Virus record (IMG/VR): IMGVR_UViG_3300024999_000355
Coordinates: 1 to 25,852 of that record
Strand: one strand, 5' to 3'
DNA length: 25,852 nucleotides
From: a virus
Program-made: the position numbers and the translations under genes
Part shown: positions 1-6,744 of the stretch, piece after piece
Position numbering within the stretch: the first letter of the stretch is position 1
How the letters are laid out: each line of letters starts with the position of its first letter
Notes under the pieces: generated by a model
What the model was told of the DNA's origin: nothing
Seen by the model: the letters and a program-made list of their open reading frames with translations, nothing else
Databases searched by the model: none

Positions 1-560
1 TTACCTTCGAGGTCTAAATACCCTCCCACATTCAGGTTTTCAGGTAGTGCTGTGATCTGAGTACCCCTGAGGTATAAAGAGCCTCCCACATTCAGGTTTT
101 CAGGTAGTGCTGTGATCTGAGTATCCCTGAGGTCTAAAGAGCCTCCCACATTCAGGTTTTCAGGTAGTGCTGTGATCTGAGTACCCCTGAGGTATAAAGA
201 GCCTCCCACATTCAGGTTTTCAGGTAGTGCTGTGATCTGAGTACCCCTGAGGTATAAAGAGCCTCCCACATTCAGGTTTTCAGGTAGTGCTGTGATCTGA
301 GTACCCCTGAGGTATAAAGAGCCTCCCACATTCAGGTTTTCAGGTAGTGCTGTGATCTGAGTACCTTCGAGGTCTAAATACCCTCCCACATTCAGGTTTT
401 CAGGTAGTGCTGTGATCTGAGTACCCCTGAGGTCTAAAGAGCCTCCCACATTCAGGTTTTCAGGTAGTGCTGTGATCTGAGTACCCCTGAGGTCTAAAGA
501 GCCTCCCACATTCAGGTTTTCAGGTAGTGCTGTGATCTGAGTACCCCTGAGGTATAAAGA
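1..560 (-). repeat. Tandem 60-bp repeat array (about 9.3 copies), coding for LRR units
   Basis: Exact 60-bp periodicity is visible from position 1 to about 560. In each full unit a block of about 39 bp (for example 82-120) is identical in every copy. Differences fall only in the first about 21 bp of each unit. Read on the minus strand, each unit encodes 20 residues, Q-I-T-A-L-P-E-N-L-N-V-G-G followed by a variable S/Y-L-Y/D-L-R/E-G/D-T. No unit shifts the frame. From the N-terminal side the variable part reads SLYLRGT, SLDLRGT, SLDLRGT, YLDLEGT, SLYLRGT (three times), SLDLRDT, SLYLRGT, YLDLEG. The near-identity suggests recent amplification or homogenisation. The array continues past the left edge. 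Confidence 0.95.
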
Positions 561-647
561 GCCTTTATAAGAAAACGAATTACCGTTTTGTTCAACTGTA
601 ACACCCAATAGTTTTTCAACTGCTGCTTTTGTTTTGTACTTATTCAT
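1..647 (-). CDS. Leucine-rich-repeat protein, partial (C-terminus beyond left edge)
   Basis: An open frame runs from the ATG at 647-645 to the left edge with no stop (at least 215 residues). About 28 non-repeated N-terminal residues (starting MNKYKTKAAVEKLLG) are followed by 20-residue leucine-rich repeats of the phage-type LPxxLxVGGxLxLxGT pattern, which should stack into a solenoid with a binding face. No signal peptide or membrane segment is seen. The start overlaps the stop of the upstream helicase gene (ATGA), so the two are probably translationally coupled and this is the last visible gene of the early operon. LRR proteins of this kind occur in several phage groups without an assigned function. 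A protein-binding role is inference from the fold. Total length is unknown. Confidence 0.85.
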   Translation of the reverse strand, partial: MNKYKTKAAVEKLLGVTVEQNGNSFSYKGSLYLRGTQITALPENLNVGGSLDLRGTQITALPENLNVGGSLDLRGTQITALPENLNVGGYLDLEGTQITALPENLNVGGSLYLRGTQITALPENLNVGGSLYLRGTQITALPENLNVGGSLYLRGTQITALPENLNVGGSLDLRDTQITALPENLNVGGSLYLRGTQITALPENLNVGGYLDLEG

Positions 648-2323
648 AATTTCATTGTAAAAAGGTTAATAATTCCATCCATAACCGATTGCTCAACATC
701 ATCCTTCGCTCCGGTGATGGTATTGGCAACCGCACGTTTATCATTGATGATCTGGTAAATCCATTCATCAATCGTATTCTTTCCAAGAAAGTAGGTGCAC
801 TGAACCGAATCAACCTGACCGATACGGTGACATCGGTCTTCGCACTGTTCGCTGTCAGCAGGGTGCCAGGGTAATTCCACAAATGCAACTCTGGATGCTG
901 CGGTTAAAGTAATTCCAACACCTGCAGCTTTTATTGAACAAAGAATTACTTTGGCTTCAGGATCGTTCTGGAAACGGTCAACGTTTCGCTGACGGGTAAC
1001 TCCGTCATCTTCTCCCAAAATTGTGAGTGCATTGGGAAAATGAGATTTCAGGTTTTTCTGGACATCGTGCAAATGGGTAAACAAGACAATCTTTTCACCG
1101 GAATCAATTACATCATTGACATATTCAACCACATCAGCGATTTTTCCACGGGCTGAGATATTCTTCAGAACTCCGATTTTAACCATAACCTCGCCTTTCA
1201 TGGACCGGGCCACCTGATCATCCGTGGCATGTTTGTATTTCTTTAGGTATTCTTCCAAATCCTTTAAAGCATCGTGATACTCTTTTCTGGTTGCTATTTC
1301 GCACAATACAACCTGTCGCATTTTGGCTGGAAGGTCTTTTAATACTTCTGATTTATCTCTCCGGTAAAAGCAGGTTTTTGAAAGCACATAGTTGAGTTCT
1401 TTCAGATTCGAACCGTTTCCGTATGTATCATCACAGTATTTCTTTACGAAGTGGTTATACCCACCAAATTCGTTTAACTGATCAATTATTCCAAGCTGAC
1501 TAATTAAATCCTTTGGCTTGTTTACAACAGGAGTTCCCGTGAGCGCTAAAATCCATTCTTTGCCGTGCGATATGCCTTTAACGAACTTCGTTTGCTGTGT
1601 TTTTAAGTCCTTGCAGCGGTGCGATTCGTCAATAATGACCGATTTGAAAAGGTTGATAATTTGCTTGAATTTGATGTGATTCAACCTCAATGGAGTATCG
1701 GCTTGCTTGTCAATCGATGCAACAAAATACTTTTTCAGACTTTCGTAGTTCACAATGAATACGTGGTTCATAACCGAACCTTCAAACAGGTTACTTCCTG
1801 TTTGTGCGAACATTGGCCATGTGTCTTTATTCTTGTCGCTTAACAACATGGCTTTTTTATCCGTCCACATGTGGAATTCCCGTTGCCAGTTCAGCTTTAA
1901 AGAAGATGGACAAATAACCAAACAAGGAAAAGCGTTTGCAGCCGTTACCGTTGCTATTGCCTGAGCCGTTTTACCTAATCCGGGTTGATCACCAACAATC
2001 AACCTTTTTTTATCAAGGCAATAGGCTACTCCGTTAGTTTGAAAATCGAACAGTTTCATTTTTAATGGGATGTTGATTTTCAGTGCAGGAAGTGCAGGAA
2101 TGATGAAGTTTTCCTTTTCTGCTGGTCTATTTTTTTCGGCAAAAGTGAACCCGTAACGGCTGGCAAAATGTTCAACCATCTGGCGGCTCGAAACCGGAAC
2201 TTTCCATGACCGTGAAACCGGGTCCCACCTTCTTCCAGCCAAACCTTTTACCGCTTCAACTAAATGTGGTTTGTAGTTGAACACGATGAACAGATACCCG
2301 TTTTTTTCAATTATCGTTTGCAT
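644..2323 (-). CDS. SNF2-family DNA helicase with HARP-like N-terminus
   Basis: A 559-residue protein with a full SNF2/superfamily 2 set of motifs: GLGKT (Walker A, residues 115-119), DESH (motif II, 232-235), TGTP (motif III, 262-265), the GVGITLTAA region (motif V, about 468-476) and QCEDRCHRIGQ (motif VI, 493-503). Residues 1-60 contain a GRRWDPVSRSWKVP stretch like the HARP domain of SMARCAL1-type annealing helicases. It probably acts on forks or recombination intermediates during phage replication, as similar proteins are common in phage replication modules. The start overlaps the end of the nuclease gene by 13 bp and the stop overlaps the LRR gene start, so the three form a coupled set. 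The family call is secure; the exact substrate is inference. Confidence 0.93.
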   Translation of the reverse strand: MQTIIEKNGYLFIVFNYKPHLVEAVKGLAGRRWDPVSRSWKVPVSSRQMVEHFASRYGFTFAEKNRPAEKENFIIPALPALKINIPLKMKLFDFQTNGVAYCLDKKRLIVGDQPGLGKTAQAIATVTAANAFPCLVICPSSLKLNWQREFHMWTDKKAMLLSDKNKDTWPMFAQTGSNLFEGSVMNHVFIVNYESLKKYFVASIDKQADTPLRLNHIKFKQIINLFKSVIIDESHRCKDLKTQQTKFVKGISHGKEWILALTGTPVVNKPKDLISQLGIIDQLNEFGGYNHFVKKYCDDTYGNGSNLKELNYVLSKTCFYRRDKSEVLKDLPAKMRQVVLCEIATRKEYHDALKDLEEYLKKYKHATDDQVARSMKGEVMVKIGVLKNISARGKIADVVEYVNDVIDSGEKIVLFTHLHDVQKNLKSHFPNALTILGEDDGVTRQRNVDRFQNDPEAKVILCSIKAAGVGITLTAASRVAFVELPWHPADSEQCEDRCHRIGQVDSVQCTYFLGKNTIDEWIYQIINDKRAVANTITGAKDDVEQSVMDGIINLFTMKL

Positions 2324-3961: not shown

Positions 3962-4594
3962 TTAAGCGATTAAGTTCCAATATTGAAAAGCTAATTCTCT
4001 GTATTTATCCTGACCGGACTGAAATAATGCATCACCTCTTTTAATCGGTATTTTGAAGACCTGAAAGTTGACCTTTGAGATTGCGATTAGAATATCCTGA
4101 TTGCTTCCGGCAATGTCCATATAGAATGCTCTTTGACGGTCATAATCGAAGTGTCTGGCAGCTTCTTCAAATTGCTTTTGGCTGGTTGCAGTGGTTGACT
4201 TTATGTCTCCACCCCAATTGAGGTGCTTCATATAAATATCCCATTTGCAACGAACCGGAAGAGTGAACTCAAAGCCTTCAAATTCAATTTGCATTTCCCG
4301 GAACATGATCGCCTGAGTATCGGCTCTTTCGAGCATCCTTCGAGCTAAATCATCTTTAAAAAATGCCCGTTTCATTTGTCTGGCCTGTTCAAATTGTTCC
4401 GGGGTGTATTGTTCCCCGGAACAGGTATAATTGTAGAAATTCACTTTGTCAGGTTCGGTAAGCATACAGTCAAGCAATGTCCCAAATTTATAGGCCTCGA
4501 AAGGATCGAACTTATTACCTCCATTTAAGAGGTATTTCAGAGTCGATAAATCGCTGTTTGAAACTTCCGTCCGTGAGTAGTAGGGATCCTTCAT
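3962..4594 (-). CDS. RecE-like PD-(D/E)XK exonuclease
   Basis: A 210-residue nuclease-like protein. An N-terminal region (YSRTEVSNSDLSTLKYLL; GTLLDCML at 38-45) is followed by the nuclease core: K-W-D-I-Y (Asp119), G-G-D-I-K-S-T (Asp130, Lys132), and Q-R-A-F-Y (Gln154, Tyr158), the glutamine-tyrosine signature of RecB/YqaJ/RecE-type exonucleases. Such enzymes resect double-stranded ends to give 3' single strands for a RecT-type annealing protein, and a RecT-like gene lies 1.2 kb upstream in the same operon. The histidine often found in the N-terminal GTxxH motif is Asp42 here. The start overlaps the stop of the 404-residue protein (TAATG). Family call strong, polarity of digestion inferred. 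Confidence 0.8.
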   Translation of the reverse strand: MKDPYYSRTEVSNSDLSTLKYLLNGGNKFDPFEAYKFGTLLDCMLTEPDKVNFYNYTCSGEQYTPEQFEQARQMKRAFFKDDLARRMLERADTQAIMFREMQIEFEGFEFTLPVRCKWDIYMKHLNWGGDIKSTTATSQKQFEEAARHFDYDRQRAFYMDIAGSNQDILIAISKVNFQVFKIPIKRGDALFQSGQDKYRELAFQYWNLIA

Positions 4595-5817: not shown

Positions 5818-6744
5818 TTAAAAGATTTCTTCACTGTCAATTGTCACACCTTCGGGTTCGTCGCCTGTGGGCTCTTCAGCGAATGATTGAATTTCAGGTT
5901 TTGAACTACTGAACTCTTTCACATCTGCCGCGCTTAATCCGTAGTCTCCGGGCTTTGGTTCATCTTCGAATTGCTGAAGGGTAGTAAACTGGCCGATCTT
6001 TATTTTCGGGAAAACCATCAGCGAGTGTTTCAGGGTTTTGGCTTCAAGGAAACCAATGTCGATTTGTCCATCGTTTGCGGTGTAAAGAGCATTGGCCTTA
6101 TTCCCTGATGAATCGCCTTTATTTTGTTTGTTGGATGCTTTTTTCAGACGTTCAATCTCTTCATCCATCATCCAGAAGAAATCAATTGAGCCATCCGGAC
6201 GGGTAAGTCCAATAAATGAACCGATGATGTTTTTTGATTTGCGGGGAACTGCGGCCATATACTTTACAAACTTTCGTCCGTATTCGTTTATGCCAGGCTG
6301 AAAGATGTCGCCATCGTAAACCACAACCGGACGGTCAACATAAAGGATTTGTCCGGCCTGAATACGAAGTGCAAGCTCACCGTAAGGGCTGATCTGAATG
6401 TAGGCTCGTTTTTCCCAGACATCATTGTTTTTAACACCTACATTTACGTTCCGTGTCAGGATGTACAAAAGAGGCTTTGTGTCTGGTGTAATAGTTAATC
6501 CCATTGCGGCAATGTCCATCAGGATGCCATAGATCGAGAATCCCGTACATTCTTTCAAATCCTTCGAGTTGCTTAGTAACTTCTGAAAGTTGTATCTTTC
6601 AGATTCGTAGAACATCTCACCATCTTCTGAATTATGAATCTGGTTGTACTTATCAATGAACCTACTGCGGATGTTGTCGCTATCGAGTATCTCGAAAGCC
6701 TTCATCTTATTCAGTTCTTCAACTTTAATTGGAATATTTCCCAT
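5818..6744 (-). CDS. RecT-like single-strand annealing protein
   Basis: A 308-residue protein. Residues 65-130 follow the RecT core: a helix with small residues (IYGILMDIAAMGLTITP), a P-L-L-Y-I strand, and A-Y-I-Q-I-S-P-Y-G-E-L-A-L-R-I-Q-A-G-Q, equivalent to the Y-R-G-x-x-x-L-A-x-R-S-G element of RecT. A later F-W-M-M-D-E-E-I-E-R-L segment matches the M-S-x-E-E-I of the family. It is followed by an acidic tail from about residue 278, which in other annealing proteins can mediate contacts with SSB. It would anneal homologous single strands made by the RecE-like exonuclease during replication and recombination. Its leader (TTTAAAGTC before ATG) resembles that of the next gene. Confidence 0.75.
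   Translation of the reverse strand: MGNIPIKVEELNKMKAFEILDSDNIRSRFIDKYNQIHNSEDGEMFYESERYNFQKLLSNSKDLKECTGFSIYGILMDIAAMGLTITPDTKPLLYILTRNVNVGVKNNDVWEKRAYIQISPYGELALRIQAGQILYVDRPVVVYDGDIFQPGINEYGRKFVKYMAAVPRKSKNIIGSFIGLTRPDGSIDFFWMMDEEIERLKKASNKQNKGDSSGNKANALYTANDGQIDIGFLEAKTLKHSLMVFPKIKIGQFTTLQQFEDEPKPGDYGLSAADVKEFSSSKPEIQSFAEEPTGDEPEGVTIDSEEIF

Follow-up and report, generated by a model that had tools for sequence, protein, structure and literature searches.

A homogenised leucine-rich repeat array in an early phage gene, probably part of a modular binding solenoid

An early phage gene of tandem LRR units lies at the first contig edge of IMG/VR record IMGVR_UViG_3300024999_000355, a linear virus fragment of 25,852 bases referred to below as the window. 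The evidence inclines us to the view that this gene encodes a modular, fast-evolving binding solenoid, a putative binder that is changeable via its units. At the level of the family of related arrays, we found the hallmarks of hypervariable repeats: concerted evolution of the units, diversifying selection at surface residues and an unstable unit number.

The array in the window and its surroundings

A single array was detected in the window by TRF (positions 9..564, period 60, 9.3 copies, 96% matches). In the minus-strand reading frame, it comprises nine complete units of 60 bp plus 26 nt from a tenth one at the contig edge (3..566), so that the repeats described in the initial annotation are real. 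The LRR unit GGxLxLxxTxIxxLPxxLxV is present in nine full copies and consists of KG or GG followed by [S/Y]L[D/Y]L[R/E][G/D]TQITALPENLNV. Among units 2-9, columns 5, 7, 12, 18, 19, 20, and 22 of the 60-bp unit vary, yielding four unit types (SYRG, SDRG, YDEG, and SDRD). Each unit thus has a variable segment of 18 bp and an invariant block of 42 bp, which had been noted correctly as a block but with a length of about 39 bp. The constant part contains zero synonymous changes, as had been reported, and the single synonymous change (GGC/GGG in codon 2) is located at the edge of the variable segment. The clustering of substitutions was likewise confirmed as far as their confinement to the 18 bp is concerned, but not as a significant feature of this array alone, because P is about 0.24 assuming only three independent events and about 0.002 when each of the seven columns is counted as an independent event. 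By itself, the array of the window is too small to demonstrate selection. With a longest exact internal repeat of 171 bp and a contig that stops within the array, neither the number nor the order of the units in the window is secure, and the number is a lower bound. The cut tenth unit deviates in its final base, at window position 1 (GGTAA on the gene strand versus GGTAC elsewhere), which is perhaps a contig-end error.

The encoded N-terminal part of the LRR solenoid protein (3..647, minus strand, 215 aa; Pfam LRR_4, E=1.4e-7) reaches no stop and is truncated by the contig end. It starts with the N-terminal cap MNKYKTKAAVEKLLGVTVEQNGNSFSYKG (561..647, minus strand). Related caps are present in L007, the closest complete relative, and in a GAC-type gene (L113), the latter likeness being judged by eye. 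A signal peptide of the product was looked for by eye and none was seen. The gene for an SNF2-family helicase (644..2323, minus strand; PF00176, E=8.5e-27) is located upstream in the same direction and its end overlaps the start of the LRR gene; relatives of this helicase were sought in viral contigs, but none was confirmed. By its gene content, which includes an integrase, a GH108 lysin, a prophage tail protein, a CI-type repressor, RecT, and a PDDEXK nuclease, the phage of the window reads as temperate, and it is of Bacteroidota type.

The exact constant block of the units was found in only one other contig of IMG/VR, IMGVR_UViG_3300025030_000512 (L020), the start of which is identical to 124 bp of the window (14..137, minus strand). 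L020 begins within the array and continues with a C-terminal domain termed GCF, an SSB gene and, farther on, a terminase-like gene, judged from its sequence. Because of the 124-bp exact overlap, a tetranucleotide correlation of 0.983 with the window, and the gene order, we took L020 as the partner contig; it is probably the other half of the window phage or of a very close phage. With this join, the LRR gene would be flanked by the SNF2 helicase gene on one side and the SSB gene on the other, and the GCF domain would follow the solenoid. The LRR stretch of SlrP matches the LRR protein of the window. An LRR E3 ligase of the IpaH/SspH/SlrP type was nevertheless rejected, since the LRR stretch alone matches (52 bits versus a cut-off of 1113) and the C-terminus of L020, where an NEL domain would lie, gave no match in Pfam.

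A RecT-type single-strand annealing protein (5818..6744, minus strand; PF03837, E=4.1e-8; phrog_148) is encoded in the window 5.2 kb from the LRR gene, together with the PDDEXK nuclease (3962..4594, minus strand; DUF3799, PF12684, E=2e-11), a candidate RecE-like partner. RecT or ERF genes were also found near genes of this kind in the phages Edno5, TJE1, EBPR podovirus 1, and CRP6, and in 10 of the 11 records with a detected RecT/ERF the distance to such a gene is no more than 2.3 kb, a proximity to be read with the tendency of early accessory genes to sit there anyway. The family-based search missed the RecT of the window itself, and absences in such searches mean little. Recombination may be the motor of unit turnover, with the RecT and the RecE-like nuclease of the phage itself, proposed in the initial annotation, as mere candidates for the enzymes.

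The model of L007 (mean pLDDT 80) comprises the cap, the LRR solenoid and a C-terminal domain. The solenoid is predicted to be curved, with parallel strands at the LxL positions. On the concave strand, the LRR register interleaves positions 3, 5, and 7 with leucines 4 and 6, which are buried. The DSSP strands at the LxL positions of the model agree with this register, and the placement of positions 3, 5, and 7 on the concave face is derived from the motif register and these strands. The best structural match was an LRR protein of a polar flagellar motor (8z5u_0; Z 10.5, rmsd 2.7, 90 aligned), which is also the closest solved LRR by sequence (E 1.9e-27). This protein differs in having diverged units and in being part of the flagellar assembly, and the match showed no GCF domain. 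Lamprey variable lymphocyte receptors were among the fold matches, too (Z 5.5-6.8); they resemble the phage protein in the LRR solenoid and in the variability of the concave face, a likeness of fold and logic only, and they differ in being vertebrate proteins assembled somatically from cassettes.

Variation and turnover of units in related arrays

Homogenised arrays of the 20-residue LRR type were gathered by two viral scans and one genome scan and originate from phages and bacteria of several phyla. In 25 arrays with a mean unit identity of at least 90%, amino acid differences between units occurred at positions 3, 5, and 7 in 0.45-0.49 of the unit pairs, at position 8 in 0.14, and at every other position in 0.08 or below, as retrieved with search patterns and a unit regex that favour such units, the regex fixing L4, L6, T9, and I11 and, loosely, positions 14, 18, and 20. 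The proposal that the changes affect exposed LRR positions is therefore borne out by the family, in which they concentrate at the LxL concave-face positions. The alphabet used there is small, namely S/Y/W/F at position 3, D/Y at position 5, and R/S/E/G/C at position 7. For 24 non-duplicate homogenised arrays, we determined pN and pS with bootstrap intervals. pN at positions 3, 5, and 7 was 0.228 and pS over all codons 0.052, resulting in a ratio of 4.4 (CI 2.9-7.6). With the imprecise pS of the three variable codons alone (0.105, CI 0.04-0.18), the ratio is about 2.2. The other 17 codons look to be under purifying selection (pN 0.017 versus pS 0.045). In 11 of the 24 arrays, less than 70% of the amino acid differences fell on the three positions. 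As amino acid differences there are about fourfold above synonymous ones, we infer that selection rather than drift keeps these positions variable.

Homogenisation accompanied by changes in copy number, as had been suggested for the window, was evident from three comparisons. L014 and L017 contain six and five units, respectively, and differ by exactly one unit, and their downstream 1.5 kb are 99.87% identical; since their upstream flanks differ, they are mosaic relatives. The orthologous gene has seven units in Edwardsiella phage Edno5 and one in GF-2. In the Riemerella phages CRP5 and CRP6, which are 99.3% identical upstream, another, BspA-like LRR array shows a difference of 132 bp. Two further candidate pairs were dropped: L101/L102, because L102 begins at a contig edge within the array, and L166/L168 versus L171 on like grounds. 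The L017-type gene was also sought in E. coli genomes, without a match. Shuffling of variant sites, the other part of the proposal, was supported by four-gamete violations in 9 of the 24 arrays, but the array of the window has none. The initial annotation had named a fixed number and order of units in relatives as an observation that would speak against it. We saw this for a diverged relative with LRRs that resides on Citrobacter and related plasmids; 106 records matched it across 80% or more of its length, and the full-length rows among the matches listed each consist of a single 843-bp piece. This relative keeps its length, unlike the homogenised arrays, which are not fixed.

Two further observations were made on LRR genes. 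In L018 (1-200), the same stop codon (GGA to TGA) is present in two adjacent units, which looks like the copying of a damaged one. One phage locus (L051, also L052 and L053) harbors three paralogous diverged LRR genes.

Restricted variation was not confined to the 20-residue LRRs; in all repeat classes measured, it fell on two to four codons of the unit, and synonymous changes were nearly absent. Eight arrays of an 18-aa LRR class vary at the same three slots (S/Y, D/Y, and R/S), and in four arrays of a 9-mer class three codons vary with synonymous change of about 0. In YdcK-type 6-mer arrays of 17-24 units, three codons switch (TCC/TAC, AAT/GAT, and CGG/TGG/CAG), and the units are otherwise nearly invariant, silent sites included; the switches in L175 (991-1734), L178, and L181 are single-base changes and, in two of these three, near 50:50 at two codons. 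Pentapeptide arrays are restricted likewise. Their GCF-bearing gene is 92-96% identical between the Listeria phages A500 and WIL-1, the arrays of which are 70 residues apart. These are phages of different kinds, WIL-1 being a Pecentumvirus and A500 a phage which we take to be smaller and temperate. ORF-55 of Edwardsiella phage GF-2 (L090, 1343-2389), located directly upstream of the one-unit LRR gene, contains an array IGSSG[DS/DR/ND/YY]A[QR] with the same restricted variation and is annotated as collagen-like.

Proposed mechanism, alternatives and known systems

In the reading we favour, the early protein would be composed of a short N-terminal cap, at least ten 20-residue LRRs, and the GCF domain from the probable partner contig. 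Recombination would copy, drop, and exchange units while most of each unit stays identical, as suggested by the copy-number differences and four-gamete violations in relatives. The side chains of positions 3, 5, and 7 would flank the two LxL leucines on the concave face and be kept variable from a small alphabet. The solenoid would then most likely represent a binding surface that is quickly re-made by adding, removing, and swapping units, and the constant C-terminal domain would do a common job. As to the target, a variable protein of the host or of a rival element, e.g., a defence component, would be the likeliest one, a speculation that we consider rather doubtful. The early gene location fits an anti-defence role and proves nothing. 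Somewhat less tentatively, and still short of even odds, phages may carry a whole modular class of hypervariable binders, in which a solenoid of one of several interchangeable kinds (two LRR lengths, pentapeptide, YdcK-type, 9-mer, and others) has units homogenised save two to four switch residues, is placed on a constant GCF or GAC domain, and can be quickly re-targeted against host or rival proteins.

Two alternatives appear unlikely to us, but deserve weighing. The array might be a neutral coding minisatellite that is subject to slippage or unequal crossing-over under little constraint, with positions 3, 5, and 7 being structurally free. Slippage or recombination alone accounts for the gain and loss of units, and the stop repeated in two units of L018 indicates that damaged units spread, too. 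At a free position, however, pN is expected to be near pS, whereas pN at positions 3, 5, and 7 is 4.4 times the pS of all codons; moreover, the remaining 17 codons seem constrained, and narrow alphabets recur in unrelated repeats. Restricted alphabets and near-perfect periodicity would also suit a protein whose near-identical turns fit a periodic target, for example DNA, a polymer or a filament, with a tuned length and residue types that simply fit; pentapeptide solenoids are in fact known as DNA mimics. Against this, the near 50:50 binary mixtures at variable codons and the different unit orders in relatives suggest that the differences between turns matter.

The other alternatives are far less probable. 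An origin or distortion of the array in short-read assembly, for which the 171-bp exact internal repeat, the contig end within the array, and the 32 of 71 non-duplicate GAC loci that also end inside the gene could be cited, is very improbable, since complete isolate phage genomes contain arrays of this type; of the artefact foreseen in the initial annotation, only the doubt about unit number and order in the window persists. Targeted mutagenesis, e.g., by a diversity-generating retroelement writing the variable codons, is disfavoured and scarcely probable. It could explain why single bases switch at constant sites of the units, and 2 of 28 records contain a reverse transcriptase that exceeds the family cut-off. 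But the variable bases are not adenine-templated, as position 5 is GAC/TAC or GAT/TAT without any AAC/CAC in the 24 arrays, and RVT_1 was not detected in the window or L020 in a loose first-look search of fragments of the type that missed the RecT of the window. A virion or surface adhesin is hardly credible: repeat solenoids are common in fibres, but this gene lies between the SNF2 helicase and, on L020, the SSB genes, far from tail genes, and no signal peptide is visible.

The closest functional parallel to the modular binder is provided by the fungal HNWD genes (het-d/het-e/het-r). They undergo concerted evolution, have a variable repeat number, and show diversifying selection at four surface residues per repeat (PMC1805685), and repeat rearrangements were found in mutants with altered recognition specificity (PMC2873952). 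The phage arrays resemble them in near-identical tandem repeats of variable number, concerted evolution, and a few diversifying residues per repeat on the interaction surface. In the fungus, by contrast, WD40 repeats are attached to a STAND NTPase, whereas in the phages a small C-terminal domain accompanies an LRR solenoid or beta-solenoid; the parallel would be a likeness of working, not kinship. If our reading holds, phages would evolve binding specificity like these fungal recognition genes by copying, losing, and swapping units, while selection keeps a few surface residues variable. The open papers searched included none on such phage repeat genes. Also close are two Edwardsiella phage genes, Edno5_0047 and GF-2 ORF-54, which share the 20-residue LRR type and a GCF-type C-terminal domain; Edno5_0047 also lies in the early region and adjoins RecE/RecT. 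Both come from a different host group and differ in unit number, as mentioned above. Pentapeptide-repeat proteins of Listeria phages (A500 gp54, B025 gp51, WIL-1, and others) have a GCF-type C-terminal domain after a length-variable array as well, but their units are pentapeptides.

The C-terminal domains GCF and GAC

The GCF domain of L020 was modelled alone with a pLDDT of 90. Its best match in the PDB (Z 4.2) was taken as noise, and it matched viral proteins with E <= 1e-3, several of which are named pentapeptide, hexapeptide, beta-solenoid, YdcK-type or polymer-forming. By sequence, the domain follows YdcK-type and pentapeptide arrays in other phages. It matches PHROG 20532 (E 9.4e-10) and PHROG 7964 (E 1.4e-7), both listed with unknown function, of which the latter also spans a whole YdcK-type solenoid protein; the member tested has a YdcK-type solenoid and not LRRs. 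In L178, a pentapeptide-GCF gene and a YdcK-type-GCF gene are located close together in one phage locus.

A second domain, GAC, occurs in at least 136 IMG/VR stretches, where it caps the LRR type of the window as well as several further kinds of repeat. The C-terminus of L020 is without the motif [YF]R[IVL]ITGAC and was therefore not assigned to it. Pfam contains no model for GCF or GAC, and a search of both profiles against PDB sequences gave nothing significant (AcrIIC4 at E=1 was disregarded). In 395 Bacteroidota genomes, GAC was found in a single, already known genome, and the GCF profile gave one weak match in a frame with a stop. Homology between the two domains is unsupported by profile comparison (0.4-0.8% probability); the weak alignment falls on the GCF and GAC motifs. 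Since such genes break short-read assemblies, as seen from the truncated GAC loci mentioned above, they are under-sampled in metagenomes. The two domains offer a handle for finding these genes and for asking what they bind.

Two database entries deserve mention. In Tetrasphaera phage TJE1 (L026, 3928-4338), an LRR-GAC reading frame is open on the strand that faces the annotated orf50, which is probably annotated on the wrong strand. Dulem virus 31 (L094, PP511318) is classed as Microviridae, yet comprises 35.8 kb with exonuclease and replisome genes, and this classification looks wrong.
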